From positions 682,001 through 746,000 of the forward strand of contig NZ_JAJJMN010000002.1 in the NCBI RefSeq assembly GCF_020905335.1: a stretch of DNA of 64,000 bases, written 5' to 3'. This DNA is from Flavobacterium lipolyticum. GTDB taxonomy: Bacteria; Bacteroidota; Bacteroidia; Flavobacteriales; Flavobacteriaceae. Below, in pieces: positions 12,659-61,620 of this stretch. A program made the position numbers and the translations under genes. Each line of letters opens with the position of its first letter. Within the stretch, counting starts at the first letter, position 1. A model generated the notes under the pieces. It saw only the letters and a list, made by a program, of their open reading frames with translations, was not told where the DNA came from and did not search any database.

Positions 12659-12682
12659 TATATATCGTAAGTTGTAAAGGTT

Positions 12683-12690
12683 CAAAGTTA
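12683..12690 (-). promoter_or_regulatory. -7 element for mutS2
   Basis: The plus strand reads caaagtta, i.e. TAACTTTG on the minus strand, matching TAnnTTTG and lying 25 bp upstream of the chosen ATG, which supports that start. The -33 box is not clear. Confidence 0.4.
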
Positions 12691-12768
12691 CAAAGTTTTG
12701 AAACGAAATAGCACTATTAATTAGTACTTTGAAGAAAACTTTGCTTAATTTGTGATAAAATTTAAAAA

Positions 12769-13440
12769 ATGGAAATCAATCTTTCTCCTGATTGGGAAAC
12801 GGTATTAAAAGATGAAAATCAAAAAACTTATTTTTCTGAGCTAATGAAAACTTTGGAAATTGAATATCAAACATATACTTGTTATCCACCTGCAGAATTG
12901 ATTTTCTCCGCTTTTAATACCTGTACTTTTCAAAACTTAAAAGTTGTCATCATAGGACAAGATCCTTATCATGGAGAAGGAGAGGCGAATGGATTGAGTT
13001 TTTCTGTAAATGATTCCGTTAAAATTCCACCGTCACTGCGAAATATTTACAGAGAACTAAATGACGATCTCGATTCGATCTTTATGCCAACTTCGGGCAA
13101 TCTTGAAAAGTGGGCAAAACAAGGTGTTTTACTCTTAAATGCATCCTTGACGGTTCGCAAAGACAGCCCAAATAGTCATAAACATTTGAAGTGGAATTTG
13201 TTTACAGACGCTGTAATTCAAGCCATTTCGGATCAAAAGGAGAATGTTGTTTTCCTGTTATGGGGAAGCTTTGCTCAGAAAAAAGGCGCTAAAATTGATC
13301 GTTCCAAACATTGCGTTTTAGAATCCGGACATCCTTCACCTATGAGTGCTAATCAGGGAAAATGGTTCGGAAACAAACATTTTAGCAAAACCAATGATTT
13401 TTTGAAATCCAAAGCAATCAAAGAAATCGACTGGCTGTAG
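12769..13440 (+). CDS. ung: Uracil-DNA glycosylase
   Basis: A 223-residue family 1 uracil-DNA glycosylase. The water-activating loop GQDPYHG contains the catalytic Asp65. The PPSLRNIYREL segment, LLLNASLTVR and the DNA-intercalation motif GHPSPMSANQG (catalytic His near residue 186) are all intact. It removes uracil from DNA in base excision repair. Length is normal. The gene is divergent from mutS2, giving two DNA-maintenance genes back to back. No terminator is clear downstream. Confidence 0.95.
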   Translation: MEINLSPDWETVLKDENQKTYFSELMKTLEIEYQTYTCYPPAELIFSAFNTCTFQNLKVVIIGQDPYHGEGEANGLSFSVNDSVKIPPSLRNIYRELNDDLDSIFMPTSGNLEKWAKQGVLLLNASLTVRKDSPNSHKHLKWNLFTDAVIQAISDQKENVVFLLWGSFAQKKGAKIDRSKHCVLESGHPSPMSANQGKWFGNKHFSKTNDFLKSKAIKEIDWL

Positions 13441-16148: not shown

Positions 16149-16166
16149 TTTTTGTTTGTTTTAATT

Positions 16167-16215
16167 AGTCTCAGTTTTCAGTCTCAGCTCTAAACTGAGA
16201 CTGAAAACTGAGACT
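16167..16215. repeat. Perfect 21-bp inverted repeat between porX and tsaE
   Basis: Arms 16167-16187 and 16195-16215 are fully complementary (core ctgagactgaaaactgag) with a 7-nt loop. The same word appears at 23311-23345 and in the tandem array at 45165-45307. It lacks a T-tract on either strand, so it is not an ordinary terminator. Confidence 0.8.
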
Positions 16216-16226
16216 GAGAACTTTTT

Positions 16227-22555: not shown

Positions 22556-22556
22556 T

Positions 22557-22690
22557 TTTAGAGTTTAGATTTCTGATTTTAGATTTCTAAGTTGAAAAAA
22601 TTGAAAATTGAAAATTAAAAATATTAATATAAAAATGAAGATTTATTCTATAGCTGGAATCTAAAATCTACATTCTAAAATCAAAAATAA
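22557..22690. repeat. 7-bp-period repeat with complementary arms between lpxA and efp
   Basis: Left units tttagag, tttagat, ttctgat, tttagat run 22557-22591; right units aatctaa, aatctac, attctaa, aatcaaa run 22658-22685 and are the complement. The right arm ends next to the efp start. Same words occur in the his spacers at 55628 and 57416. Confidence 0.7.
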
Positions 22691-22694
22691 AAAA

Positions 22695-23261: not shown

Positions 23262-23270
23262 TTTTTATGA

Positions 23271-23347
23271 GTTTTCAGTTTTCAGTCGCAGTTATCAGTT
23301 TGTTAATGCAGATTGAAAACTGAGACTGAAAACTGAGACTGAAAACT
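23271..23347. repeat. Imperfect inverted repeat between efp and the LpxD-like gene
   Basis: Left arm starts gttttcagttttcag at 23271; right arm (23311-23346) repeats ctgagactgaaaa with a 13-bp step and is its imperfect complement. The right arm ends 11 bp before the next start codon. Confidence 0.65.
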
Positions 23348-23357
23348 AAATAAATAT

Positions 23358-38690: not shown

Positions 38691-38693
38691 TAA

Positions 38694-38773
38694 GTTGATT
38701 GTTGATGGTTTGTTGTTTATTGTTCTGCAGCCATAAACTATAAACAAAAAACTCTAAACCATAAACAAAATAA
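38694..38773. repeat. 7-bp-period repeat with complementary arms
   Basis: Left units gttgatt, gttgatg, gtttgtt, gtttatt, gttctgc (38694-38728); right units cataaac, tataaac, aaaaaac, tctaaac, cataaac (38732-38766) are their complement. The right arm ends about 10 bp before the next start codon. Confidence 0.75.
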
Positions 38774-38776
38774 TAT

Positions 38777-44953: not shown

Positions 44954-45032
44954 ATTAGTTTACAGTCTCAGTATTCAGTAGCAGTCATCGTCTTTGAACT
45001 GCGTTTAGTTTACAGATTGCAACTAATTTATT

Positions 45033-45082
45033 AAAATAAAAATAGCCTCAAATTCTAATGAACTTGAGGCTATTTTTATTTT
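45033..45082. terminator. Strong bidirectional terminator
   Basis: Perfect 19-bp stem (45033-45051 and 45064-45082; core tagcctcaa), 12-nt loop, with A- and T-runs inside the stem. It lies in the 362-bp stretch 44954-45315, which otherwise holds the repeat array and degenerate cagtctcag words. Confidence 0.9.
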
Positions 45083-45164
45083 AGTCTTTGTTATATAGTT
45101 TTTCCCAAAGACTTCATTTACGATCAATACCGCAACAGTAAGTAATATTCAAACTGAGACCGCG

Positions 45165-45307
45165 ACTGAATACCGCGACTGAGTACTGAGACTGAGTACT
45201 GAGACTGAATACTGAGACTGAATACTGAGACTGAATACTGAGACTGAATACTGAGACTGAATACTGAGACTGAATACTGAGACTGAATACTGAGACTGAA
45301 TACTGAG
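45165..45307. repeat. 13-bp tandem repeat array (11 units)
   Basis: Eleven head-to-tail units of 13 bp; units 4-11 are identical (actgaatactgag) and units 1-3 differ by one to three bases. A partial twelfth unit precedes the stop codon of the LTA-synthase-like gene on the opposite strand. The exact copies indicate recent expansion, and copy number is likely to vary between strains. There are no spacers, so it is not CRISPR. Confidence 0.92.
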
Positions 45308-45315
45308 ACTGAAAA

Positions 45316-47406
45316 CTAACGCTGATACTTCTTCTCTTTAAGCATATAGGAAGCTGTTTGATAAAAAGAAATGGTTTCTTTTACCAGATCAGCTCTCTCT
45401 GTTTTCATCGGAGTTTCGTTGTAATCAATCTGAAATTCAGGAGCAATACCCGGTTTCGGATTAATTTGCACATTAAACTGTTTTACCTGCTGCTTAGGCG
45501 ACAAAATCGTCAAAACATTGTCTTTTAGTAGTCCCATGTCCTGATAAGTAGCGATAAAAGCTCTTGGTTTATAATCCGGTTCTAAAACGTCCTGACCGAA
45601 AAACTTACTTTCGTAATTAAAATTTAATAATCCAAAGAGCGTTGGCATAACATCTATTTGCGACATTAACTGATTGTATTTTTGAGGTTTTCCATTCGGA
45701 TCATAAATAAACCCCGGAATTCTATACTTATCTAAAGGAAGCTCAGTTTTTCCTGCACTTGAGGCACAGTGGTCGGCTACAATAACAAAAATGGTATTCT
45801 TAAACCAAGATTGTTTGCTTGCCATTGCAAAAAATCTTTTCAACGAATAATCTGTATATTTTACACCACCTTCACGAGATTTTGCATCACCCGGAATATC
45901 AATTTTATTATTTGGATACGTAAAAGGTCTGTGGTTACTCACCGTCATAATATGATTAAAGAAAGGCTTGTTTTCCTTTTTCTCAGCATTCATAACCTTT
46001 ATCGCTTTATGGTACATATCTTCATCACAAACACCCCAAACATTGGAGAAAGTAATTTCTTCAGGTGCAAAACTTGACTTGTCTACAATTTCATAACCAT
46101 TTCCGGAAAAGAAATCCTGCATATTATCAAAGAAAGCATCTCCGCCATACAAATATTTCACCTTATATCCTTTTTGCTTAAAAACAGCTCCGGTAGAAAA
46201 TTTGTTCTTATTATCTTCTCTTTTCACAACACTTTCACCGGCAGTTGGAGGCAAGCATAAAGTAACCGCTTCCAGTCCGCGAACTGTTCTGTTTCCGGTA
46301 GCATACAAATTGGTAAAAAGAAGACTCTTTTGAGCCAAACTATCTAAAAAAGGAGTAATATTTTCCTCATTTCCATACATCTTCATAAAATCGGCACTAT
46401 AACTTTCAATAGTAATCAGAACCACATTTTTATGATTTTCAAGCGAATCTCCGGTGATAGTTCTTTTAGTACTGTTTCCTTTAATAGTAGCGAACTGTTG
46501 TTTTAGTATCGCAAAAGCCTCTTCATTAGGTAACGTTTTATAAAAATCAAAGTAATCAAGCTTACTGTTCACAAATGCTAAGTAAAATTTATAGATACCG
46601 TTAGCCTGTAATTCGTTAACAAAAACATTCTTTGAATTTTCCGTTTTTGCCAGCGTTGGAATCGCAATTAGTGAAACAGCAAATGCTCCAAGATAGATAG
46701 CCGTAATTTTTAGTTTCTCACTTATAGTCGGAATATGGTCAATATAGTTTCTGGACTTTTTAACAATAAAGTAAGTCACAATTCCAGTCACTAAAAATAA
46801 AGCCGAGAACAAAGGAATAACGGGATAGGACTCCATAATATTTCCAATAACCTCAGTAGTGTAAATCAAATAATTTACCGCAATAAAATTATACTTCACA
46901 CCAAACTCATTCCAAAAGAAATATTCACTTAAACCATTTTGCAGAATTAGTAAAACATACAGGAACATTACAAATGCAAACAACCAATATCTGATTTTAT
47001 CTCTTAACTTAGGAAGAAACAACAAAAGTGCAAAGAGAGCCATCTTAATTCCGATAAAAATCATAACAATCATTGGCAAAGCACCTCCATACTCGTCAAA
47101 GACACTTTTTCCGGAAGCTGCATAGATAAAAAGAACTGCAAAAATCCCAAGAATTATATAACCGGAAGGTTTATTATACTTAGAATTGGATATGAAAATT
47201 AGATAAAGCCATAAAAAAACACTTGCCACAACAAAAACAAAAAAATCAGAAATAAGCCCCAGGACAAAGATTTTTAAGCTTTGAATAATGGTAAATGAAC
47301 TTTGTGTTATAGGATGAAAAAACAAAACAATTCTTAACAGAAAACTAACGATAAAATAAAATATCGCCAGATTGTAAATTGGGGAAAACTTTTTTGAAAG
47401 GGACAT
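45316..47406 (-). CDS. LTA-synthase-family sulfatase-fold membrane protein
   Basis: A 696-residue protein: five to six membrane spans in the first 250 residues, then a sulfatase/alkaline-phosphatase fold domain (about 330-640) with VVLITIESYSADF (metal Glu), the nucleophile Thr in GNRTVRGLEAV, and VADHCASSAG (metal Asp-His). The family transfers phosphoglycerol or phosphoethanolamine to lipids or glycans; in Gram-negative organisms it probably decorates lipid A or periplasmic glucans. It ends against the 13-bp repeat array. A TAttTTTG element lies upstream at 47477-47484. Confidence 0.85.
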   Translation of the reverse strand: MSLSKKFSPIYNLAIFYFIVSFLLRIVLFFHPITQSSFTIIQSLKIFVLGLISDFFVFVVASVFLWLYLIFISNSKYNKPSGYIILGIFAVLFIYAASGKSVFDEYGGALPMIVMIFIGIKMALFALLLFLPKLRDKIRYWLFAFVMFLYVLLILQNGLSEYFFWNEFGVKYNFIAVNYLIYTTEVIGNIMESYPVIPLFSALFLVTGIVTYFIVKKSRNYIDHIPTISEKLKITAIYLGAFAVSLIAIPTLAKTENSKNVFVNELQANGIYKFYLAFVNSKLDYFDFYKTLPNEEAFAILKQQFATIKGNSTKRTITGDSLENHKNVVLITIESYSADFMKMYGNEENITPFLDSLAQKSLLFTNLYATGNRTVRGLEAVTLCLPPTAGESVVKREDNKNKFSTGAVFKQKGYKVKYLYGGDAFFDNMQDFFSGNGYEIVDKSSFAPEEITFSNVWGVCDEDMYHKAIKVMNAEKKENKPFFNHIMTVSNHRPFTYPNNKIDIPGDAKSREGGVKYTDYSLKRFFAMASKQSWFKNTIFVIVADHCASSAGKTELPLDKYRIPGFIYDPNGKPQKYNQLMSQIDVMPTLFGLLNFNYESKFFGQDVLEPDYKPRAFIATYQDMGLLKDNVLTILSPKQQVKQFNVQINPKPGIAPEFQIDYNETPMKTERADLVKETISFYQTASYMLKEKKYQR

Positions 47407-49960: not shown

Positions 49961-50020
49961 ATGATTTCTAATCAATTACATCATCATCATTTTCATTATT
50001 GCTCTCAGGCGATGTGTTAA
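49961..50020 (+). CDS. hisL: Histidine operon leader peptide
   Basis: A 19-codon frame encodes MISNQLHHHHFHYCSQAMC: five His codons in a row of six (49979-49996), then a stop at 50018-50020. A strong terminator follows at 50048-50080, and hisG starts at 50130. A His-rich leader just before a terminator and the his genes is the hallmark of attenuation by ribosome stalling when charged tRNA-His is scarce. The name hisL is by analogy of position and composition. Confidence 0.85.
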   Translation: MISNQLHHHHFHYCSQAMC

Positions 50021-50080
50021 TGGTATGCGTGTAAATCATCATATTTTAAAACCCGTTTGAGTACATCAAACGGGTTTTTT
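50005..50080 (+). promoter_or_regulatory. his attenuator: terminator and competing antiterminator
   Basis: Terminator: 13-bp stem 50048-50060 with 50066-50078 (core aaacccgtttga), 5-nt loop, T-run. Competing pairing found by hand: 50005-50020, the end of the leader frame, can pair with 50046-50060, the left arm of the terminator, using two G-U pairs and a small internal loop. A ribosome stalled at the His codons leaves 50005-50020 free so the antiterminator forms; one that reaches the stop codon covers it and the terminator forms. The mechanism is inferred; the terminator is plain. Confidence 0.7.
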
Positions 50081-50129
50081 TATACCACTTCTTTGTACTC
50101 AGACTATTTAATACTAAAAAACTAAAAAA

Positions 50130-50987
50130 ATGAGTACATTAAAAATTGCAATTCAAAAATCAGGTCGATTAAACGAAGACAGCATTCAAATTCTTAAAGA
50201 TTGTGGTATTTCAATCAACAACGGAAACGATCAGCTTAAAGCCGAAGCTTCCAACTTTCCTTTAGAAGTTTTATACCTTCGAAACTCAGACATACCGCAG
50301 TATTTAATTGATGGAGTGGTAGATCTAGCTATCGTTGGTGATAATTTACTTGTGGAGAAAGGCCGACAAATCGAAGTAATTCAAAAACTGGGTTTTTCTA
50401 AGTGCAAAGTTTCTGTTGCAGTTCCCAAAACCTTTGAATACAATTCGATACAGGATTTATCAGGTTTGCGTGTTGCAACCTCATATCCTAATACCGTAAA
50501 TGAGTATTTTAATTCTTTTGGACTGACAGTCGATATTCACCAAATTTCGGGCTCAGTAGAAATTGCTCCTAATATCGGACTTGCAGATGCCATTGTTGAT
50601 ATTGTTTCAAGCGGAAGCACCTTATTCAAAAACAATTTAAAAGAGGTTGAAGTAATTCTTAAAAGTGAAGCTGTTCTCGCTGTTTCACCAAAAGTATCAC
50701 CCGAAATTCAAAAACACATTGATACTTTAAAATTCAGAATCCAGTCCGTTTTAAGAGCTAGAAACTCCAAATACATCCTAATGAACGTACCTAACGATAA
50801 AATCGAAGCAATTGGAAAAATTCTGCCGGTGCTTCGAAGCCTTACCGTTTTGCCGCTTGCACAGGAAGGATGGAGCAGCGTTCACTCGGTAATTGATAAA
50901 GACACCTTTTGGGATGTAATTGACCAATTAAAAGAGGAAGGAGCAGAAGGAATCTTAGTGTGTCCAATTGAGAAAATGGTTCTTTAA
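50130..50987 (+). CDS. hisG: ATP phosphoribosyltransferase (long form)
   Basis: A 285-residue enzyme of the long HisG type. The catalytic part (1-205) has KIAIQKSGRLNEDS, DLAIVGDNLLVE and the PRPP-loop-like IVDIVSSGSTLFKNN. The C-terminal ACT-like domain (about 210-285) has VLPLAQEGWSSVHSVI, and ends GILVCPIEKMVL; it is the histidine feedback site, so HisZ is not needed. It makes phosphoribosyl-ATP, the first step. First gene of the operon after the attenuator. Confidence 0.95.
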   Translation: MSTLKIAIQKSGRLNEDSIQILKDCGISINNGNDQLKAEASNFPLEVLYLRNSDIPQYLIDGVVDLAIVGDNLLVEKGRQIEVIQKLGFSKCKVSVAVPKTFEYNSIQDLSGLRVATSYPNTVNEYFNSFGLTVDIHQISGSVEIAPNIGLADAIVDIVSSGSTLFKNNLKEVEVILKSEAVLAVSPKVSPEIQKHIDTLKFRIQSVLRARNSKYILMNVPNDKIEAIGKILPVLRSLTVLPLAQEGWSSVHSVIDKDTFWDVIDQLKEEGAEGILVCPIEKMVL

Positions 50988-51000
50988 ATGCACTTCGTGC

Positions 51001-51091
51001 GCTGTAAGCAATAAGCTTTAAGCTATATGCTGACAGATTAAAGAAAAAACAAAACTGCTTATAGCCTAAAGCTTAAAGCCTAAAGCATAAA
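51001..51091. repeat. 7-bp-period hairpin spacer, hisG-hisD
   Basis: Left units gctgtaa, gcaataa, gctttaa, gctatat (51001-51028); right units gcttata, gcctaaa, gcttaaa, gcctaaa, gcataaa (51057-51091) are complementary in type. The right arm ends 4 bp before the hisD start. Confidence 0.8.
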
Positions 51092-51095
51092 AAAA

Positions 51096-52388
51096 ATGAA
51101 TAAAATAAACAATCCGAAACTAGATACCTGGTCAGAAATACTAAAACGACCAACTAAAACGATCGATGATATTGAAGTTACAGTAAAGGAAATCTTTAAA
51201 GAAGTACAGAAAAAAGGGGATGAAGCTGTTGCTAAATACACTTCAATTTTTGACGGAATTGCTCTGGAAAACTATGAAGTTTCATCTGAAGAGATTCAGG
51301 AAGCCAATAGTAGCATTTCAGAGGAACTAAAAGCGGCTATTCTGTTAGCAAAAGAAAACATATATAAATTTCACAGCGCTCAAAAAACAGATAAGATCTC
51401 GATTGAAACGACTGAGGGAGTCAACTGCTGGCAGGAAAAGAGACCTATTCAAAAAATTGGCTTATACATTCCGGGAGGAACAGCACCTTTGTTTTCAACT
51501 GTTCTAATGTTGGCTGTTCCTGCCGGAATTGCAGGCTGTAAAGAAATAGTACTATGTTCTCCGCCTGATAAATCCGGGAAAATAAACCCTGCAATTCTAT
51601 ATGCAGCTACTTTATGCGGTGTAACCAAAATCTTAAAAGTGGGAGGGATTCAGGCCATTGCCGGAATGACATTCGGAACAAAGTCAATCCCTAAAGTATA
51701 TAAAATTTTTGGACCTGGAAATCAATTTGTAACTGTAGCAAAACAGTTGGCAACTCAATTTGGAGTAGCCATCGATATGCCTGCCGGACCTTCAGAATTG
51801 CTGGTCGTAGCTGATGACACCGCTGTACCAGCATTTGTTGCCTCCGATTTACTGTCTCAGGCAGAACACGGAACAGACAGTCAGGTAATTTTGGTTTCGA
51901 CTTCTAAAAGATTAATTCAAGCCGTTGAAAAGGAGATCCAGATTCAAATTGAAGAACTTCCCCGAAAAGCAATTGCCAAGAAAGCCATTGAAAACTCAAA
52001 ACTAATTTATGTAGAAAACGATCAAATCGCTTTAGATTTAATTAACGAGTATGGACCGGAACATTTTATAATTTGCTCACAATATGATGATTTCTACTGT
52101 AACGGAATTATCAACGCAGGTTCTGTGTTTATAGGCAATTACACCCCTGAAAGTGCAGGAGACTACGCGTCAGGAACCAATCATACTTTACCAACAAACG
52201 GCTATGCTAAAAATTACAGCGGCGTAAACCTGGACAGTTTTGTTAAATCAATGACCTTCCAGAAAATATCTAAGGAAGGCATTCAGAAAATTGGCAGCGC
52301 CATTGAAATTATGGCTGAAGCTGAAGGATTACAAGCTCACAAGAATGCAGTGACATTGCGATTAAAGAGTTTGAAGGAAAGAGGATAG
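51096..52388 (+). CDS. hisD: Histidinol dehydrogenase
   Basis: A 430-residue enzyme with the family landmarks: GLYIPGGTAPLFSTVLMLAV, IQAIAGMTFGT, KIFGPGNQFVTVAKQ, DMPAGPSELLVVAD, the zinc and catalytic segment SQAEHGTDSQV, YGPEHF with catalytic Glu-His, and SGTNHTLPTNGYAK. It oxidises histidinol to histidine in two NAD-dependent steps with zinc. Length is normal. Confidence 0.96.
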   Translation: MNKINNPKLDTWSEILKRPTKTIDDIEVTVKEIFKEVQKKGDEAVAKYTSIFDGIALENYEVSSEEIQEANSSISEELKAAILLAKENIYKFHSAQKTDKISIETTEGVNCWQEKRPIQKIGLYIPGGTAPLFSTVLMLAVPAGIAGCKEIVLCSPPDKSGKINPAILYAATLCGVTKILKVGGIQAIAGMTFGTKSIPKVYKIFGPGNQFVTVAKQLATQFGVAIDMPAGPSELLVVADDTAVPAFVASDLLSQAEHGTDSQVILVSTSKRLIQAVEKEIQIQIEELPRKAIAKKAIENSKLIYVENDQIALDLINEYGPEHFIICSQYDDFYCNGIINAGSVFIGNYTPESAGDYASGTNHTLPTNGYAKNYSGVNLDSFVKSMTFQKISKEGIQKIGSAIEIMAEAEGLQAHKNAVTLRLKSLKERG

Positions 52389-52520
52389 AGGCAAGAGTCA
52401 GGAATATAGAAGCAAGAATATAGAGCAAAGACTATAGAACATAGAAGTAAAGGATATGGTATTGACTGACCAGATAAAAAGTCTACTATCTTGCCTCTTG
52501 GCTCTATTATCTATTCTCTA
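52385..52520. repeat. 7-bp-period hairpin spacer, hisD-hisC
   Basis: Left words of the type atagaag and caagaat keep strict 7-bp phase from 52385 to 52454; right words (ctctatt, atctatt) at 52480-52520 form an imperfect complement. The right arm ends about 18 bp before hisC. Confidence 0.65.
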
Positions 52521-52537
52521 AAGAAAAAACAAAAAAA

Positions 52538-53584
52538 ATGAAATTCGATATAAACACGATAACAAGAGAGAATGTAAAATCTTTGAAACCTTATTCTTCA
52601 GCACGTGATGAGTTTGAAGACTTTGATACTGCCGACATGATTTTTTTGGATGCGAATGAAAATCCGTTTCAGACTGGAGTAAATCGTTACCCTGATCCAC
52701 AACAACTTTCGGTCAAAGCCATTTTAGCGAAGAATAATAAGGTAAAAGCAAACCAGATTTTATTAGGAAACGGAAGTGATGAAGTTCTCGATTTACTATT
52801 CAGAGCGTTCTGCGAACCTAAAACAGACAATATCATTTCGCTTCCGCCAACTTATGGGATGTACAGCGTTTTGGCAGATATTAATGCCGTCGAGAACAGA
52901 GAAGTTTTACTTTCAACTGATTTTCAGCCACAAGTAGATCAAATCTTAGATGCTGTTGACGATTCGACCAAAATTATCTTTTTATGCTCTCCAAACAATC
53001 CTACGGGAAATTCATTTTCAGACGAGAGCGTTGTAAAACTACTTCAAAACTTTAAGGGTTTAGTTGTGATTGATGAGGCTTATATAGACTTTTCAAAAAA
53101 GGAAAGCTGGTTGACGGAGATAGACGAATATCCAAATTTAATCATCACGCAAACCCTTTCAAAAGCCTACGGACTAGCAGGAATCCGTTTAGGAATTTGT
53201 TATGCTTCCGAAGCTGTGATTTCGGTTCTCAACAAAATAAAACCTCCTTATAACGTAAACGAATTAACCCAGCAGAGAGCTATAAATCGTTTGAATGATC
53301 CTGAAAGGATACAGAATGAAATAGCTTCAATTATCGAACAAAGAGAAGAACTAATTAAAGTTTTACTTGAGGTTGATTTTGTAGAAAAAGTATATCCAAC
53401 AGAAGCTAATTTTGTTTTGGTAAAAGTAGACGATGCCAATAAAAGATACAATCAATTAATTAAAAAAGGAATTGTAATCCGAAACAGAACCAATCAGCCT
53501 TTATGTGAAAACTGCCTTCGTTTGACGATTGGGATTCCGGAAGAAAATGCTGTTTTGATTAAAGAATTGAAATTATTGAAATAA
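52538..53584 (+). CDS. hisC: Histidinol-phosphate aminotransferase
   Basis: A 348-residue fold-type I aminotransferase: DANENPFQTGVNRYPDPQ, LGNGSDEVLDLLFRAF, CSPNNPTGNSFS, VIDEAYIDFS, and the pyridoxal-phosphate Lys in TLSKAYGLAGIRLG (SKAYG). C-terminal RLTIGIPEENAVL is typical HisC. It transfers an amino group from glutamate to imidazole acetol phosphate. Length normal; third in the operon. Confidence 0.96.
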   Translation: MKFDINTITRENVKSLKPYSSARDEFEDFDTADMIFLDANENPFQTGVNRYPDPQQLSVKAILAKNNKVKANQILLGNGSDEVLDLLFRAFCEPKTDNIISLPPTYGMYSVLADINAVENREVLLSTDFQPQVDQILDAVDDSTKIIFLCSPNNPTGNSFSDESVVKLLQNFKGLVVIDEAYIDFSKKESWLTEIDEYPNLIITQTLSKAYGLAGIRLGICYASEAVISVLNKIKPPYNVNELTQQRAINRLNDPERIQNEIASIIEQREELIKVLLEVDFVEKVYPTEANFVLVKVDDANKRYNQLIKKGIVIRNRTNQPLCENCLRLTIGIPEENAVLIKELKLLK

Positions 53585-53634
53585 AACTTAACCGCAAAGC
53601 TCGCAAAGAATTACGCGAAGTACGCAAAGTTTTC

Positions 53635-53786
53635 TTGCCACAGATTATATAGATTAAAAGAATTTTTATTTTGCCACAAATTTCTCGAATTTTCACTAAT
53701 TCAATTCGTTTTAATTCGTGAATTCGTGGCGAAAAATTAAACACAAGGAATAAAAAAATCATTATAATCTATATAATCTGTGGCAA
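53635..53786. repeat. Long nested inverted repeat, hisC-hisB
   Basis: Outer arms 53635-53656 and 53765-53786 are perfectly complementary over 22 bp (core gccacagattatatagat). Inside them a second pair (gccacaaattt ... and ...aattcgtggc, 53692-53730) repeats the same opening word in the opposite direction. Upstream, 53592-53629 has looser cgcaaag repeats. Confidence 0.85.
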
Positions 53787-53802
53787 AACAAAAATATAAA
53801 CT

Positions 53803-54939
53803 ATGAAAAAAGTACTTTTTATCGATCGTGACGGAACGATTGTTTTAGAACCTGAAAATTACCAATTAGACGCTTTGGAGAAAGTAGAATTTTATCCAAA
53901 AGCTTTTCAATACTTAGCTAAAATTGCCAACGAATTAGATTACGAATTGGTAATGGTTACCAATCAGGACGGTCTGGGAACGGATAGTTTTCCGGAAGAA
54001 ACGTTTTGGCCAACACAAAATTTTATCTTAAAAGCTTTTGAGAATGAAGGAATTAAATTTGATGCAATTTTCATCGACAGATCTTTTCCGGAAGATAATG
54101 CCCCAACAAGAAAGCCAAGAACCGGGATGCTGACACAATACATCGATAACCCGGAATATGATTTAGAAAATTCTTTTGTTTTAGGAGATCGTTTGACGGA
54201 TGTTGAATTAGCTAAAAATCTGGGAGCGAAGGCTATTTTTATTAATGATAATGATGGAATCGGGAGCAATGAAATTTCATCCAAGCGTGAAGAATTAGAC
54301 CAAACGATTGTGCTTCAGACAATGAGTTGGAAAACCATCTATGAGTTTTTAAAATTAGAAGCACGTTCAGCCTCAATTACACGTAAAACGAATGAAACAG
54401 ACATTTTTGTTAATTTGAATCTGGATGGAACGGGAAAAAGTAAAATCGAAACCGGAATTGCATTTTTTGACCATATGTTAGATCAAATTTCCCGCCACGG
54501 TCAAATGGATTTAGAAATATTGGTTAAAGGTGATCTGGAAGTAGATGAACACCACACCATTGAAGATACGGCAATTGCTTTGGGAGAAGTTTTCGCCAAA
54601 GCATTAGGAAACAAACTGGGAATCGAACGTTATGGCTTTTGTTTGCCTATGGACGATTGCCTGGCACAGGTCGCAATCGACTTTGGCGGAAGAAACTGGC
54701 TGGTTTGGGAAACCGAATTCAAACGCGAAATGGTGGGTAAAATGCCAACAGAAATGTTTTTTCACTTCTTTAAATCATTCTCAGATGGTGCAAAAGCAAA
54801 CATCAACATCAAAGCTGAAGGAACGAATGAGCATCACAAAATCGAGGCAATTTTTAAAGCTTTCGCAAAAGCGATAAAAGTGGCAGTGAAAAGAGATACG
54901 GAGAAAATGATTTTACCTTCAACAAAAGGAATGTTGTAA
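53803..54939 (+). CDS. hisB: Bifunctional histidinol-phosphatase / imidazoleglycerol-phosphate dehydratase
   Basis: A 378-residue fusion. The HAD phosphatase half (1-175) begins [13 protein letters not shown] with catalytic Asp8 and Asp10 and has [17 protein letters not shown]. The IGPD half (about 184-378) has [13 protein letters not shown] and [18 protein letters not shown] with the manganese-binding His and Glu residues, and ends STKGML. It carries out steps 7 and 9 of histidine synthesis; the fusion is usual in Bacteroidota and enterics. Confidence 0.96.
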
Positions 54940-54942
54940 ATC

Positions 54943-55005
54943 GCTATAAGCTATAAGCAATAGGCAATAAGCCTAAAGCTTAAGGCTTAAAGCATAAAGC
55001 TTTTA
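54943..55005. repeat. Nine uninterrupted 7-bp units filling the hisB-hisH spacer
   Basis: Nine consecutive heptamers starting gc run from 54943 to 55005, for example gctataa (twice), gcaataa, gcctaaa and gcttaaa. They fill 63 of the 69 bases between the two genes. Inner units are self-complementary, so the whole spacer can fold. Confidence 0.9.
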
Positions 55006-55008
55006 TTA

Positions 55009-55602
55009 ATGAAAATAGTAATCATAAACTACGGTGCAGGAAATATTCAAAGCATCATGTTTGCAGTGGAAAGACTCGGTTTTAAAGCGGTTTTGAGCAA
55101 TGACCCTGATGAAATTCAAAAGGCCGACAAAGTAATTTTTCCGGGAGTAGGTGAAGCAAGTTCGGCAATGACTAAACTGAAAGAAAGCGGTTTGGATCGT
55201 TTGATACCGAACTTAAAACAGCCTGTTTTAGGAATCTGCCTCGGAATGCAATTAATGTGTAATGCTACGGAAGAAGGAAATACTCAAGGTTTAGGAATTT
55301 TTAACGTAGACGTCATAAAATTTTCGTCTAATGTAAAAGTACCACAAATGGGATGGAATCAGATTTATAATCTAAAATCTGATCTGTTTAAAGACATTGC
55401 CGAGAATGAATTTATGTATTTGGTACACAGCTTTTATGCCCCAAATTGCCAATATATGATCGCAACAACAAACTATGATACAGAGTACGCGTCGGCATTA
55501 CAAAAAGATAATTTTTATGGAACGCAATTTCACCCCGAAAAGAGTGGTGATGTTGGGGAGAAAATTCTTGAGAACTTTCTTAAACTAAGTAACAAAGAAT
55601 AA
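55009..55602 (+). CDS. hisH: Imidazole glycerol phosphate synthase, glutaminase subunit
   Basis: A 197-residue class I glutamine amidotransferase: IINYGAGNIQSI, FPGVGEASSAM, the nucleophile Cys in LGICLGMQLMC, and the His-Glu pair in GTQFHPEKSGD. It supplies ammonia to HisF. Length normal. Confidence 0.96.
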   Translation: MKIVIINYGAGNIQSIMFAVERLGFKAVLSNDPDEIQKADKVIFPGVGEASSAMTKLKESGLDRLIPNLKQPVLGICLGMQLMCNATEEGNTQGLGIFNVDVIKFSSNVKVPQMGWNQIYNLKSDLFKDIAENEFMYLVHSFYAPNCQYMIATTNYDTEYASALQKDNFYGTQFHPEKSGDVGEKILENFLKLSNKE

Positions 55603-55627
55603 AATCCAAATTCCAACAACGTAAGAA

Positions 55628-55662
55628 AATCTAAAATCTAAAATCAGAACTCTAAAATTTAG
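55628..55662. repeat. 7-bp-period repeat, hisH-hisA
   Basis: Units aatctaa (twice), aatcaga, actctaa, aatttag run without interruption from 55628 to 55662, ending 4 bp before hisA. Confidence 0.8.
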
Positions 55663-55666
55663 AAAA

Positions 55667-56410
55667 ATGAGAATAATACCCGCCATAGATATTATCGACG
55701 GAAAATGTGTTCGCTTATCGAAAGGCGATTACGACACTAAAATAATTTACAATGAAAATCCTATCGAAGTTGCCAAATCATTTGAAGCTCATGGAATCGA
55801 ATACCTGCATTTAGTAGATTTAGACGGTGCAAAGTCAAATAAAATTGTCAATTACAAAATCTTAGAGCAAATTGCGACACAAACCAGCTTACGAATTGAT
55901 TTTGGAGGCGGTTTAAAATCAGATGAAGATTTAAGAATTGCTTTTGAAAGTGGGGCAAACCAAATTACAGGCGGAAGTATTGCTGTAAAAAATAAAGAAA
56001 TATTCCAAAAATGGATCTCTCAATATGGTTCTGAGAAAATTATACTGGGCGCTGACGCCAAAGACGAAAAAATTGCCGTTTCGGGCTGGTTAGAAAATTC
56101 AGACGAAGATTTGATTCCGTTCATTCAGGAGTATCAAAGCAAAGGAATTCAATACGTTATTTGTACCGATATCGCCAAAGACGGAATGTTAGAAGGCCCA
56201 AGTTTTGATTTGTACGGCAAAATTTTAAAAAACTGTAATGTCAAATCGAGCGAAGTCGAAATTAAATTGATCGCATCAGGCGGAATTTCAACATTCGATG
56301 AATTGCCTAAACTAGCCGAACTGGGCTGTGAAGGAACAATCATTGGAAAAGCAATCTACGAAGGGCGCATTAGCTTAAAACAATTAGAGAATTTTATAAT
56401 TAGAAAATGA
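55667..56410 (+). CDS. hisA: ProFAR isomerase
   Basis: A 247-residue beta-alpha barrel: [20 protein letters not shown] with the catalytic Asp8, [38 protein letters not shown] with the second catalytic Asp, and [15 protein letters not shown] for the phosphate. It isomerises ProFAR to PRFAR. Length normal. Confidence 0.96.
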
Positions 56411-56525
56411 GATAATTGGAAAATGAGAAAATTAGATAATTTGATAATTCAAAAACAATCGTAAAAAAGAAATTATCTAATTGACTAATTATCACATTTA
56501 CCAATTCCCTAATTAACACATTAAA
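56411..56525. repeat. Inverted AT-rich repeat, hisA-hisF
   Basis: Arms 56430-56441 (aattagataatt) and 56471-56482 are perfectly complementary over 12 bp; surrounding words gataatt and ctaatta repeat with rough 7-bp spacing. It fills the whole 118-bp spacer. Confidence 0.65.
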
Positions 56526-56528
56526 GAA

Positions 56529-57284
56529 ATGTTAGCAAAAAGAATCATACCCTGTTTGGATATAAAAAATGGGAGAACCGTAAAAGGGGTTAATTTCGTT
56601 GATCTTCGTGATGCAGGGGATCCTGTTGAGTTGGCAGAACTGTATTCAGCAGAAGGTGCCGATGAACTGGTTTTTCTGGATATTTCAGCCACTGAAGAAC
56701 GCCGTAAAACGCTTGTTACTATGGTTCGAAATGTCGCAGAGAAGATCAATATTCCATTTACCGTCGGAGGTGGAATTTCAAGCGTTGAAGATGTTGAAAT
56801 TTTACTGAACAACGGCGCAGATAAAGTTTCGATCAATTCCTCGGCAGTCAAGAATCCACAGTTAATTAATGAATTGGCTCAGAAATTTGGAAGTCAGTGC
56901 GTGGTCGTCGCTATCGATGCCAAACAAATTAACGGGCTATGGATCGTACATTTGGTAGGAGGAAAAGTACCAACCGAACTCAACTTATTCGATTGGGCAG
57001 TTGAAGTGGCAAAACGTGGTGCAGGAGAGATATTATTTACTTCGATGGACAATGACGGTACTAAAAACGGATTTGCGAATGAGGCACTCGCTAAACTTTC
57101 AGCACTCGTTAATATTCCGATAATTGCCTCGGGTGGCGCAGGAAACATTCAGCATTTTGTCGATTCATTTAAGAAAGGCAAAGCCGATGCAGCCTTAGCC
57201 GCAAGTGTTTTTCACTTTAAAGAGATTGAGATTAAGACTTTGAAGCAAGAGCTTAGGAATAATGGTGTTGAAGTCAGAGTTTAG
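56529..57284 (+). CDS. hisF: Imidazole glycerol phosphate synthase, cyclase subunit
   Basis: A 251-residue beta-alpha barrel: [20 protein letters not shown] with catalytic Asp11, [49 protein letters not shown] with the second catalytic Asp, and IIASGGAGN. It closes the imidazole ring using ammonia from HisH. Length normal. Confidence 0.97.
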
Positions 57285-57450
57285 AGCACAGAGAATAGAA
57301 AATAGAACAAAGAGAATAGACTAAAGAAAAAAAAGATTCTGGTAATCTACAATCTGAACTCTAAAGTCTAGAATAAAAAGGGCAGGATATAATTAAAAAA
57401 CCAAAAGAATTCAGCAATCTAAAATCTGAACTCTAAAATCTAAAATAACT
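57285..57450. repeat. 7-bp-period hairpin spacer, hisF-hisIE
   Basis: Six units such as agaatag, aaaatag, aacaaag run 57285-57326. Two blocks of aatctaa/aatctga/actctaa type units follow at 57344-57371 and 57416-57450, the last ending on the base before the hisIE start codon. Confidence 0.8.
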
Positions 57451-58047
57451 ATGAACGTAGATATTAAAAGTGCACACGGATTAATTCCGGCAATCATTCA
57501 GGATGCAGAAACCAGGAATGTACTGATGCTGGGATATATGAACGAAGAATCACTTCAAAAAACAATAGAAACACAAAAAGTAACCTTTTTCAGCCGATCC
57601 AAACAAAGACTTTGGACTAAAGGTGAGGAAAGCGGTAACTTTTTAAATCTGGTAAGCATTAAAAATGACTGCGATGGAGATACACTTTTAATCCAGGCAA
57701 ACCCTGTAGGACCAACCTGTCACACAGGAGCAGACACCTGCTGGCAGGAAGAAAACAAAGAAAACTACAGTTTCATTTCTACCTTAGAAAGTACTATCAA
57801 GACCCGAAGGGAAAATGCTGATTCAGAAAAAAGTTATGTCGCTTCACTATTCGAAAAAGGAATTAACAAAATAGCCCAAAAAGTCGGTGAAGAGGCCGTT
57901 GAAGTCGTTATTGAAGCTAAAGACAATAACGATGATTTATTTCTTAGCGAAAGCGCCGATTTACTTTTTCACTACCTTATCTTATTACAAGCCAAAGGCT
58001 ATCAGCTTAATGATGTTGTTGATGTTCTGAAAAAGCGTCAGAAGTAA
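57451..58047 (+). CDS. hisIE: Bifunctional PRA-CH / PRA-PH (cyclohydrolase and pyrophosphatase)
   Basis: A 198-residue fusion. The HisI half (1-105) has LMLGYMNEESL, FFSRSKQRLWTKGEESGN and the zinc and metal ligands of CDGDTLLIQ and GPTCHTGADTCW. The HisE half (about 110-198) is helical, with KVGEEAVEVVIEA and SADLLFHYLILL. It performs steps 2 and 3 of the pathway and is the last gene of the operon. A heptamer array follows. Confidence 0.96.
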   Translation: MNVDIKSAHGLIPAIIQDAETRNVLMLGYMNEESLQKTIETQKVTFFSRSKQRLWTKGEESGNFLNLVSIKNDCDGDTLLIQANPVGPTCHTGADTCWQEENKENYSFISTLESTIKTRRENADSEKSYVASLFEKGINKIAQKVGEEAVEVVIEAKDNNDDLFLSESADLLFHYLILLQAKGYQLNDVVDVLKKRQK

Positions 58048-58055
58048 AAAGTTTA

Positions 58056-58159
58056 GTTTCAGGTTTCAAGTTTCAAGTTTCAGGTTTCAAGTTTCAGGTT
58101 TCAAGTTTCAGGTTTCAAGTTTCAAGTTGTGTGAGGTAACCTGAAACCTGAAACCCGAA
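58056..58159. repeat. Ten-unit 7-bp tandem array with complementary arm after hisIE
   Basis: Ten consecutive heptamers gtttcag or gtttcaa (58056-58125), then after a 12-base loop the complement acctgaaacctgaaacc (58139-58155 region). The array can fold as a hairpin and may act as the end of the his transcript, although there is no T-run. Confidence 0.9.
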
Positions 58160-58228
58160 ATTTACTCTCCAAACTTCGACTTCATTTAGTACACCAAAAA
58201 ATACTATTTAGTAGAAAATAATACTTTT

Positions 58229-59964: not shown

Positions 59965-61620
59965 ATGAAAAAATACTTAGGTGGCGTCTGTATCGCCTTT
60001 CTATTTGGCTTTACTGCCAATGCACAAGGACTTTTGAATAAGTCAGAAACTACTTTTACACATCAGGACACTTTACGCGGAAGCATTACAAAAGAAAGAG
60101 CCTGGTGGGATTTAAAATACTATCATCTTGATGTAAAAGTGAGCCCAAAAGAGAGAACAATTTCAGGTTCGAATACAATCCGTTATACTGTTTTAACCCC
60201 ATACGACAAGATGCAGATTGATTTGCAGGAACCTATGCAAATTACGAAAGTAACACAGGGGGGAAAAGAATTACAGTTTAAGAGAGATGGAAATGCCTTT
60301 TTTATTACGCTGACTGAAAAGCAAAAAATAGGTGATACCAAAGAAGTGGTAGTGAGTTTTACCGGAAAACCAAGAGAAGCCGTTAAGGCACCCTGGGACG
60401 GTGGAATCAGCTGGAAAAAGGACAAAAACGGTAAAGATTTTATCGCTTCATCCTGTCAGGGACTGGGAGCAAGTGTATGGTGGCCGAACAAAGATCATAT
60501 GTACGATGAAGTCGAGAACATGATGATCAGCGTAAACGTTCCCGGAGATCTTACCGATGTTTCAAATGGAAGATTAAAAAGCGTTAAAAAGGAAAAGGAT
60601 GGAACTAAAACCTTCAACTGGTATGTTTCAAATCCCATCAACAACTATGGTGTAAACATCAATATTGGGGATTATGTTAATTTCTCAGAAGTATACAAAG
60701 GCGAAAAAGGAGATTTAGATTGTAACTATTATGTTTTAAGAGACAATCTTGCTTTGGCAAAAGAACAGTTCAAAGATGTACCGAAAATGCTAAAAGCTTT
60801 TGAAAACTGGTTTGGACCTTATCCATTTTATGAAGACAGTTACAAGCTGGTTGAAGTACCTTATCTGGGAATGGAACACCAAAGTAGTGTGACTTACGGG
60901 AATGGCTATAAAAATGGTTATTTAGGACGTGATTTAAGCGGAACAGGCTGGGGATTAAAATTTGATTTTATCATCATCCATGAATCTGGTCACGAATGGT
61001 TTGCCAACAATATCACGTACAAGGACATTGCCGATATGTGGATCCATGAAAGTTTTACTAATTATTCAGAAAGTCTTTTCCTGGAGTATTACTACGGAAA
61101 AGATGCTGCTGCAGAGTACGTAATTGGATGCCGTAAAGGGATTCAGAACGATAAACCTATCATTGGTAATTATGACGTAAACAACGAGGGGTCAGGCGAT
61201 ATGTATCCAAAAGGAGCTAACATGCTGCACATGATGCGTCAGATCATAAATGATGATGCCAAATGGAAATCGATTTTAAGAGGTTTAAATAAGACTTTTT
61301 ATCACCAAACTGTGACAAGCAAGCAAATCGAGGATTACATCAACACACAATCCGGAATTAATTTTAATAGAGTATATGCTCAATATTTGACCACAACAAA
61401 GATCCCGGTTTTTGAGTATATGTTTAAAAACGGAACTTTCGGTTACCACTGGACCAATTGTGTCTCTAAATTTGACATGCCCGTGAGAGTAAAATTAAAC
61501 GGAGTTGAAACATGGTTAAAACCAACAACCGAATGGCAATCAGAAAAAACTACTGATGAATCACGTAAAGTAGAAGTAGATAAAGATTTTTATGTAACGA
61601 CTTCTAATATTATAGAATAA
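59965..61620 (+). CDS. Secreted M1-family metallopeptidase
   Basis: A 551-residue peptidase with a signal peptide (GVCIAFLFGFTANAQG). The N-terminal beta domain holds YYHLDVKVSPKERTISGSN. The catalytic domain has the exopeptidase-like motif LGMEHQSSVTYGNG (GMEHQ in place of GAMEN) and zinc site HESGHEWFANN (His339, His343) with Glu362 in WIHESF. It lacks the long C-terminal helical domain of aminopeptidase N. It cleaves peptides in the periplasm or outside. A strong terminator follows. Confidence 0.9.
   Translation: MKKYLGGVCIAFLFGFTANAQGLLNKSETTFTHQDTLRGSITKERAWWDLKYYHLDVKVSPKERTISGSNTIRYTVLTPYDKMQIDLQEPMQITKVTQGGKELQFKRDGNAFFITLTEKQKIGDTKEVVVSFTGKPREAVKAPWDGGISWKKDKNGKDFIASSCQGLGASVWWPNKDHMYDEVENMMISVNVPGDLTDVSNGRLKSVKKEKDGTKTFNWYVSNPINNYGVNINIGDYVNFSEVYKGEKGDLDCNYYVLRDNLALAKEQFKDVPKMLKAFENWFGPYPFYEDSYKLVEVPYLGMEHQSSVTYGNGYKNGYLGRDLSGTGWGLKFDFIIIHESGHEWFANNITYKDIADMWIHESFTNYSESLFLEYYYGKDAAAEYVIGCRKGIQNDKPIIGNYDVNNEGSGDMYPKGANMLHMMRQIINDDAKWKSILRGLNKTFYHQTVTSKQIEDYINTQSGINFNRVYAQYLTTTKIPVFEYMFKNGTFGYHWTNCVSKFDMPVRVKLNGVETWLKPTTEWQSEKTTDESRKVEVDKDFYVTTSNIIE

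Follow-up and report, generated by a model that had tools for sequence, protein, structure and literature searches.

The short tandemly repeated repetitive (STRR) sequences of heterocystous cyanobacteria consist of seven-bp tandem units drawn from a few exact words and are not known to have an inverted architecture. Direct repeats of the heptamer TAACTGA form long arrays in marine Beggiatoaceae, Cyanobacteria, and five Bacteroidetes (MacGregor, 2015; PMC4679880). As reported in the same study, copies from two Cyanothece strains vary in length in steps of 7 nt, and other heptamer repeats stand beside TAACTGA in Gramella, Aequorivita, and Elizabethkingia (PMC4679880); a paper on Thiomargarita cites this work (PMC4853749). 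Another class of intergenic repeats present in many copies comprises the repetitive extragenic palindromes (REP) and bacterial interspersed mosaic elements (BIME), found with REP-associated tyrosine transposases (RAYT) (PMC2817692, PMC3116915). Here, we describe the spacers of the his operon in a stretch of 64,000 nt of Flavobacterium lipolyticum DNA (the window; genome size 5.77 Mb), most of which have a 7-bp period, and similar spacers in related genomes.

The Flavobacterium arrays resemble the TAACTGA repeats in being intergenic heptamer tandem arrays near start codons. The latter, as described (PMC4679880), are built of one exact word, nearly always direct and without predicted structure, whereas Flavobacterium has many degenerate words, inverted pairs, and gap-specific word sets. 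Tandem exact TAACTGA units (TAACTGATAACTGA) were found neither in the window nor in any of 285 fetched loci. Unlike REP and BIME palindromes, the arms considered here are heptamer arrays of variable unit number, with word sets tied to particular gaps and no RAYT linkage of the common words in the flanks examined. The G-quadruplex-forming repeat of Xanthomonas and Nostoc is G-rich (PMC4692102), whereas the Flavobacterium words are AT-rich. Intrinsic terminators likewise place an inverted repeat 3' of a stop codon, but the periodic hairpins lack an excess of G.U pairs, and those of the his genes sit inside the operon. The lexicon of Flavobacterium heptamers was not found in the literature searched, subscription journals being mostly outside reach, and the nearest description is the single-word TAACTGA study; the main text of a transcriptome paper on F. 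psychrophilum contains neither 'heptam' nor 'hairpin' (PMC9723704).

We assign a probability of about 50% to the reading that these spacers are DNA-level heptamer spacer alleles, growing by unit slippage and replaced as whole spacers, and are not working RNA hairpins. The elements themselves can plausibly be described as short arrays whose unit is a degenerate heptamer or, more rarely, an octamer; frequently, two such arrays with the same word are paired in inverse orientation.

Spacers of the his Operon

The his operon occupies positions 50130-58047 of the window in the order G-D-C-B-H-A-F-IE. The gene names are labels of an earlier sequence-based note (the original prediction), carried to relatives by tblastn and not assigned from a family library, and gene boundaries throughout come from open reading frame (ORF) callers written for this analysis, not from annotation. 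Among the matches listed, the nearest named relative by HisF is F. tructae (97%). Each gap was tested for a segment self-similar at a given lag and for an inverted repeat against 1000 dinucleotide shuffles, with the following results (WC, Watson-Crick; TRF, Tandem Repeats Finder).

50988..51095, + strand: hisG-hisD spacer; inverted AAGCYTA/GCTTTAR arrays; arms 51001-51030 / 51057-51086, 24/30 WC pairs; lag-7 p 0.000, hairpin p 0.000
52389..52537, + strand: hisD-hisC spacer; AGAATAG/AAGCAAG word 3' of the stop, complementary copy 5' of the start; best stem without gaps 52415-52431 / 52496-52512; lag-7 p 0.000, hairpin p 0.017
53585..53802, + strand: hisC-hisB spacer; nested inverted repeats with CACAGATTA and CACGAATT words and weak period 9; arms 53630-53672 / 53749-53791, 36/43 WC pairs; lag-7 p 0.907, lag-9 p 0.026, hairpin p 0.000
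54940..55008, + strand: hisB-hisH spacer; AAGCYTA-word array filling nearly all of the gap; arms 54943-54965 / 54971-54993; lag-7 p 0.000, hairpin p 0.015
55603..55666, + strand: hisH-hisA spacer; AAATCTA array in one orientation before the start; lag-7 p 0.000, no significant hairpin (p 0.073)
56411..56528, + strand: hisA-hisF spacer; inverted 8-mer (AATTAGAT) arrays; arms 56414-56449 / 56471-56506; lag-8 p 0.000, lag-7 p 0.827, hairpin p 0.000
57285..57450, + strand: hisF-hisIE spacer; AGAATAG array 3' of the stop, then two AAATCTR arrays; lag-7 p 0.004, no significant hairpin (p 0.578)
58048..58228, + strand: region 3' of hisIE; some ten GTTTCAR units followed by CCTGAAA units; arms 58075-58100 / 58138-58163; lag-7 p 0.000, hairpin p 0.000; TRF, 10.6 copies of AGTTTCA

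The original prediction held that every spacer consists of 7-bp words able to fold into a hairpin. The 7-bp period was significant in six of the eight spacers (p<=0.004), namely G-D, D-C, B-H, H-A, and IE-3' (p 0.000) as well as F-IE (p 0.004); the exceptions are A-F (p 0.83), with a period of 8, and C-B (p 0.91), with a weak period of 9. A significant inverted repeat was also present in six of the eight, G-D, C-B, A-F, and IE-3' (p 0.000), B-H (p 0.015), and D-C (p 0.017), the exceptions being H-A and F-IE. Thus, period and hairpin coincide only in G-D, D-C, B-H, and IE-3'. The inverted repeats of 12 and 22 bp predicted in A-F and C-B are present and extend further once mismatches are allowed, to 43 bp in C-B (36 WC pairs) and 36 bp in A-F (30 WC pairs). 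The right arm stops 9 to 25 bp upstream of the next start codon in all of the significant hairpins but that of IE-3', where the distance is 65 bp. The predicted positions agree with TRF and the shuffle test to within a few bp.

The proposed constant architecture with a word that changes from spacer to spacer holds broadly, across the genus and beyond, except that, among the eight spacers, two have no hairpin and two no 7-bp period, and, by eye, G-D and B-H share one word and H-A and F-IE another. Rfam yielded no match above the gathering score in the window. A short ORF (MISNQLHHHHFHYCSQAMC, 49961-50020), located upstream of hisG and of a hairpin of terminator-like appearance (about 50049-50082), resembles the leader peptide of a histidine attenuator.

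Distribution of Lag-7 Gaps

The period was surveyed in 57 loci around hisF (54 titled Flavobacterium), which are largely orthologous, so that gaps of related species are not independent, and in stretches of four Flavobacterium genomes totaling 1.86 Mb, where shared orthologous gaps were screened in the phase test only. In the hisF loci, a significant lag-7 segment was detected in one-third of the co-directional gaps (190/568), in 12/70 convergent gaps, and in none of 70 divergent gaps; among the co-directional gaps, lags 4-6 and 10-13 each gave 6 to 11, lag 8 gave 59, and lag 9 gave 17. In the four genomes, lag 7 was found in 83/663 co-directional gaps, compared with 13, 25, 49, 25, 13, and 16 at lags 5, 6, 8, 9, 10, and 11, and in 16/135 convergent and 11/134 divergent gaps. 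Lag 7 was further found in 35/207 co-directional gaps of a second group, mostly other Flavobacteriaceae, and in 14/113 of other Bacteroidota; in 250 kb of Escherichia coli, it occurred in 3/70 co-directional gaps, similar to its other lags (1 to 5).

The pattern is real and widespread, and it is not special to his, although the his operon is locally rich in it, since 6 of its 8 gaps have the period compared with 83/663 in the four genomes. An absence from promoter gaps, considered as a further rule, was rejected: divergent gaps were free of lag 7 in the named loci (0/70), but in the four genomes their share (11/134) is not different from that of co-directional gaps (p 0.19), and only hairpins are rare there. 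An eighth (four genomes) to a third (hisF loci) of the sampled co-directional Flavobacterium gaps obey one rule, a 7-bp period with a small word list.

Word Lexicon and Arm Orientation

Words were labelled and clustered with hand-written patterns and a mismatch rule made for this analysis. When the longest arms of 89 gaps are sorted by word, 16 clusters result, whereas the same loose clustering gives 35-36 for random heptamers. The clusters AAATCTA, AAACCTG, and AAATTCC were present in all four genomes and AAAGCCT in three. The original prediction was right that this is not one mobile repeat; the words nonetheless form a recurring lexicon and are not private to each spacer. Adjacent gaps of F. 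lipolyticum share words only slightly more often than distant ones (14.7 vs. 9-14%).

The order of the two arms is fixed for each word. In the named loci, no word occurred in both orders, the reverse copy standing first in 21/21 cases for AAACYTG and 12/12 for TCTATTC, and the same was seen in 10 gaps of the F. lipolyticum genome. In the four genomes, the majority orientation was found in 87/103 arms of clusters with two or more members, to which small clusters contribute partly by construction. Small palindromes (cccgatagctatcggga and similar) were observed inside the heptamer arrays of spacers in loci L027, L131, and L036.

Word Alleles at Orthologous his Gaps

A listed word could be assigned to 234 of the 300 his spacers with lengths of 40-260 bp. 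Which word a spacer carries is strongly tied to the gap (Cramer V 0.76), each his gap having its own set of 2 to 9 alternatives. Orthologous gaps, which the original prediction proposed to compare between strains, show frequent word swaps between species. On a species tree based on four his proteins, with gaps labelled 'other' dropped, at least 22 word changes are required at B-H (47 species), 17 at A-F (44), and 13 at G-D (36); labels shuffled among species give 26.8, 19.2, and 15.7, respectively.

A word is more alike at the same gap in different species than at another gap for all five testable words. For AAGCYTA, likeness between species is 0.89 at B-H and 0.72 at G-D, compared with 0.50 across gaps; for AAATCTR and TCTATTC, the difference is only 0.05. 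As a separate observation, a GC-rich inverted pair, ccccctaacccccgaaggggg / ctcccccttcgggggct or close variants, forms an alternative B-H spacer in AT-rich genomes (L150, L151, L154, L156, and L177).

Gain and Loss of Units

Two related species with 94.6% identity over 178 kb aligned (the sister pair) were used to follow recent changes. The arrays behave as a variable-number tandem repeat, with unit-length indels between close relatives: one-third of the array indels (5/15; 19.8 per kb) are of exactly 7 bp, compared with 2/101 in other co-directional gaps (8.7 per kb) and 5/210 in all other intergenic DNA. The substitution rate of the arrays is 5.8%, higher than the 4.2% of the remaining co-directional gaps and lower than the 10.5% of convergent gaps and the 10.9% of third codon positions. 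At some gaps the words of the two sisters are unrelated, and certain elements occur in only one of the species. Where adjacent heptamer units differ, the mismatches resemble ordinary mutation that followed a duplication: transitions account for 49-56% of the mismatches within one arm in four settings, a share nearer to the 62% of substitutions between the sisters than to the 29% of random pairs. The single-arm value replaces a whole-segment share (0.32-0.36), which is misleading because it mixes both arms.

The original prediction had also considered a hairpin-templated slippage process, and the gain and loss of 7-bp units are indeed seen; the arms, however, are mostly not unit-by-unit mirror images. 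In the form in which one arm is repeatedly copied onto the other, such correction would account for the use of one word by both arms, and the observed unit order pairs slightly better than a permuted one (0.81 vs. 0.74 WC), although some of this gain is to be expected from choosing the best register. We consider it very unlikely nevertheless, as permuting units costs little complementarity, which is mostly at the level of the word (median p 0.33, 77 stems), and at one locus of the sister pair (A 6627) one arm lost a unit while the other did not. Strict unit-by-unit templating was rejected, given how little permuting the units of one arm lowers the WC fraction.

RNA Hairpins and Protein-Binding Sites

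The original prediction suggested that the hairpins may insulate genes or set mRNA stability or translation. Such mRNA hairpins could act as insulators between genes, shield 3' ends, or couple the translation of neighbouring genes if a ribosome that terminates over the left arm releases the right arm together with the next start. Their placement is suggestive: lag-7 arrays extend close to both flanking codons (median distances of 8 nt for the stop and 7 nt for the next start), hairpins occur in 44/83 lag-7 gaps compared with 147/580 others in the four genomes, and they are common in co-directional (191/663) and convergent (94/135) gaps and rare in divergent ones (10/134).

Two tests nevertheless render this explanation improbable. 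A sense hairpin under selection should tolerate G.U more than A.C. In 147 periodic hairpins of the named loci, 95 G.U and 120 A.C were counted, whereas terminator-like controls gave 20 to 6; in the four genomes, the periodic ratio was 43 to 51, compared with 62 to 31 for non-periodic hairpins (p 0.005) and 77 to 44 for terminators, and in the F. lipolyticum genome it was 13 to 43. The non-periodic contrast is weak elsewhere (29 to 24 in the named loci; 30 to 25). In 135 his spacers of 21 genomes, G.U and A.C numbered 76 and 106, although single gaps differ, and the B-H spacers of 16 his operons show an excess of G.U (16 vs. 6), as RNA selection would produce.

With respect to folding energy, the sense RNA of periodic gaps was less stable than the antisense in 142/226 non-tied cases (84 vs. 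142, p 6e-5; hairpin subset, 58 vs. 82, p 0.03), whereas the terminators folded more strongly in the sense orientation (68/103, p 0.001). The four genomes show only a trend to weaker sense folding (51/83; 32 vs. 51, p 0.09; hairpin subset, 28 vs. 40, p 0.36), and non-periodic hairpins show no difference there (45 vs. 44). Because there is no excess of G.U over A.C and sense RNA folds no better than antisense, a function as mRNA hairpins is not supported; two of the eight his spacers, moreover, have no hairpin. In F. johnsoniae, mRNA structure and an A at position -3 are reported to tune translation initiation (PMC6847099), which fits the G-poor words before starts and argues against hairpins there.

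Alternatively, the arrays may be binding sites for a protein on DNA or on unpaired leader RNA, as MacGregor proposed for the TAACTGA repeats. They adjoin start codons, their substitution rate is about half of the silent rate, and in a pool of 88 leaders the units keep a fixed phase relative to the ATG, with A at positions -6, -13, and -20. With one representative per cluster, the phase lock persists for octamer arrays (15 leaders, 0/2000 random phases) and is not significant for heptamers (25 leaders, p 0.13), nor was it significant for heptamers in the four genomes (30 arrays, p 0.24; 15 clusters, p 0.12). No single binding protein would fit so many unrelated words at one gap, and we regard binding-site arrays as quite unlikely.

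Mobile Palindromes and Inserted Genes

A further explanation is that each word represents one family of dispersed palindromes moved by a transposase, similar to REP or miniature inverted-repeat transposable elements (MITE). It agrees with the shared lexicon, with the single order of the two arms per word, and with whole elements present in one sister species and lacking in the other. By eye, however, arm unit number and loops vary between copies, and elements present or absent in the sister pair show no clear target duplication; the word sets are gap-specific, unlike the outcome of free transposition. The 450-nt flanks of 10 Y1_Tnp places (6 in F. lipolyticum, 4 in relatives) contain, by eye, mostly other palindromes or nothing alike, with no run of the commoner heptamer words and a short GCAAAG run at one place (L118). 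There is thus only a small chance that the arrays belong to such families. An origin from RAYT and REP in particular was not supported, the common heptamer words not being linked to Y1_Tnp genes in the flanks examined.

Y1_Tnp/RAYT-like genes of F. lipolyticum at L068 (around 12480-13079) and L118 carry their own flanking palindromes. In the sister pair, a dispersed element was seen whose ends read acacatagaaacatag and whose inner part is partly shared (A 54350-54600, B 60788-61096); one sister has it at the first of these places and the other lacks it there.

Genes inserted into his operons often lie between gaps that share words, defined as at least three shared non-simple 9-mers. This was observed for 11/19 inserted genes, compared with 18/247 core his genes and 88/750 non-adjacent gap pairs. 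The qualifying genes, of about five families by eye, are found at A-F (5/5; L125, L127, L171, L175, and L177) and B-H (6/7), whereas none of those at C-B (0/6) or G-D (0/1) reaches three shared 9-mers. Extra genes between arrays in the B-H gap were seen in L122, L123, L125, L133, L138, and L167, and all of the listed A-F and B-H cases but L123 are flanked by word-sharing gaps. In the sister pair, 5/11 inserted segments not beside tRNA genes reach three shared 9-mers, in windows of up to 300 nt that are partly coding, and none is, by eye, a pair of arrays of the same word; two tRNA-flanked segments share tandem tRNA sequence.

Evolution of the Spacers

If the spacers are DNA-level alleles, an array would start and grow by slipped-strand duplication of units and would then be copied in inverted orientation, possibly through a template switch at a fork or hairpin, after which both arms would drift separately. 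Whole spacers, from stop to start, may be replaced by other alleles via recombination or re-insertion, sometimes carrying a gene, while mild purifying pressure would keep the spacer, and the G-poor orientation of its word, before start codons.

Several observations weigh against this account. Convergent gaps of the sister pair have a higher indel rate than the arrays (23.3 vs. 19.8 per kb; 1/65 of 7 bp), octamer arrays show 14-23% transitions, a misfit with duplication followed by mutation, and no inverted-copy event was observed directly. Neither does the account explain the unit length of 7, and the G.U excess in B-H spacers runs against it. Phylogeny leaves a weak signal in the words, the 22 changes counted at B-H being fewer than in any of 100 shuffles (minimum 23). 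Spacers with the same word at one gap keep 56-92% likeness between species, and this conservation, together with a substitution rate of 5.8% against a silent rate of 10.9%, points to some unnamed constraint on the arrays. Finally, no large recombination tracts were seen around the spacers, third codon positions flanking the gaps differing by <=0.02 between same-word and different-word pairs in every flanking bin.

A wider, rather unlikely picture would have Flavobacterium operons held together by interchangeable spacer cassettes, in which old word alleles of each gap are exchanged from stop to start between species and same-word arrays serve as seams for plugging in or losing whole genes without breaking the operon. 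If the spacers are exchangeable alleles, operon structure would evolve partly by spacer replacement, and the recurrence of heptamers in unrelated bacteria would become testable by strain comparison.

Similar Arrays Elsewhere in the Window

TRF identified four elements of the same architecture outside the his operon, together with a 13-mer repeat in a convergent gap.

16149..16226, - strand: inverted ACTGAGA/ACTGAAA arrays
22556..22694, + strand: inverted AAATCTA arrays
23262..23357, + strand: inverted ACTGAAA/ACTGAGA arrays
38691..38776, + strand: GTTTATTGTT / ATAAACC word arrays
44954..45315, no strand assigned: convergent gap with a tandem repeat of the 13-mer GACTGAATACTGA (6+7) at 45164-45317, 11.8 copies with 96% matches, and complementary units upstream

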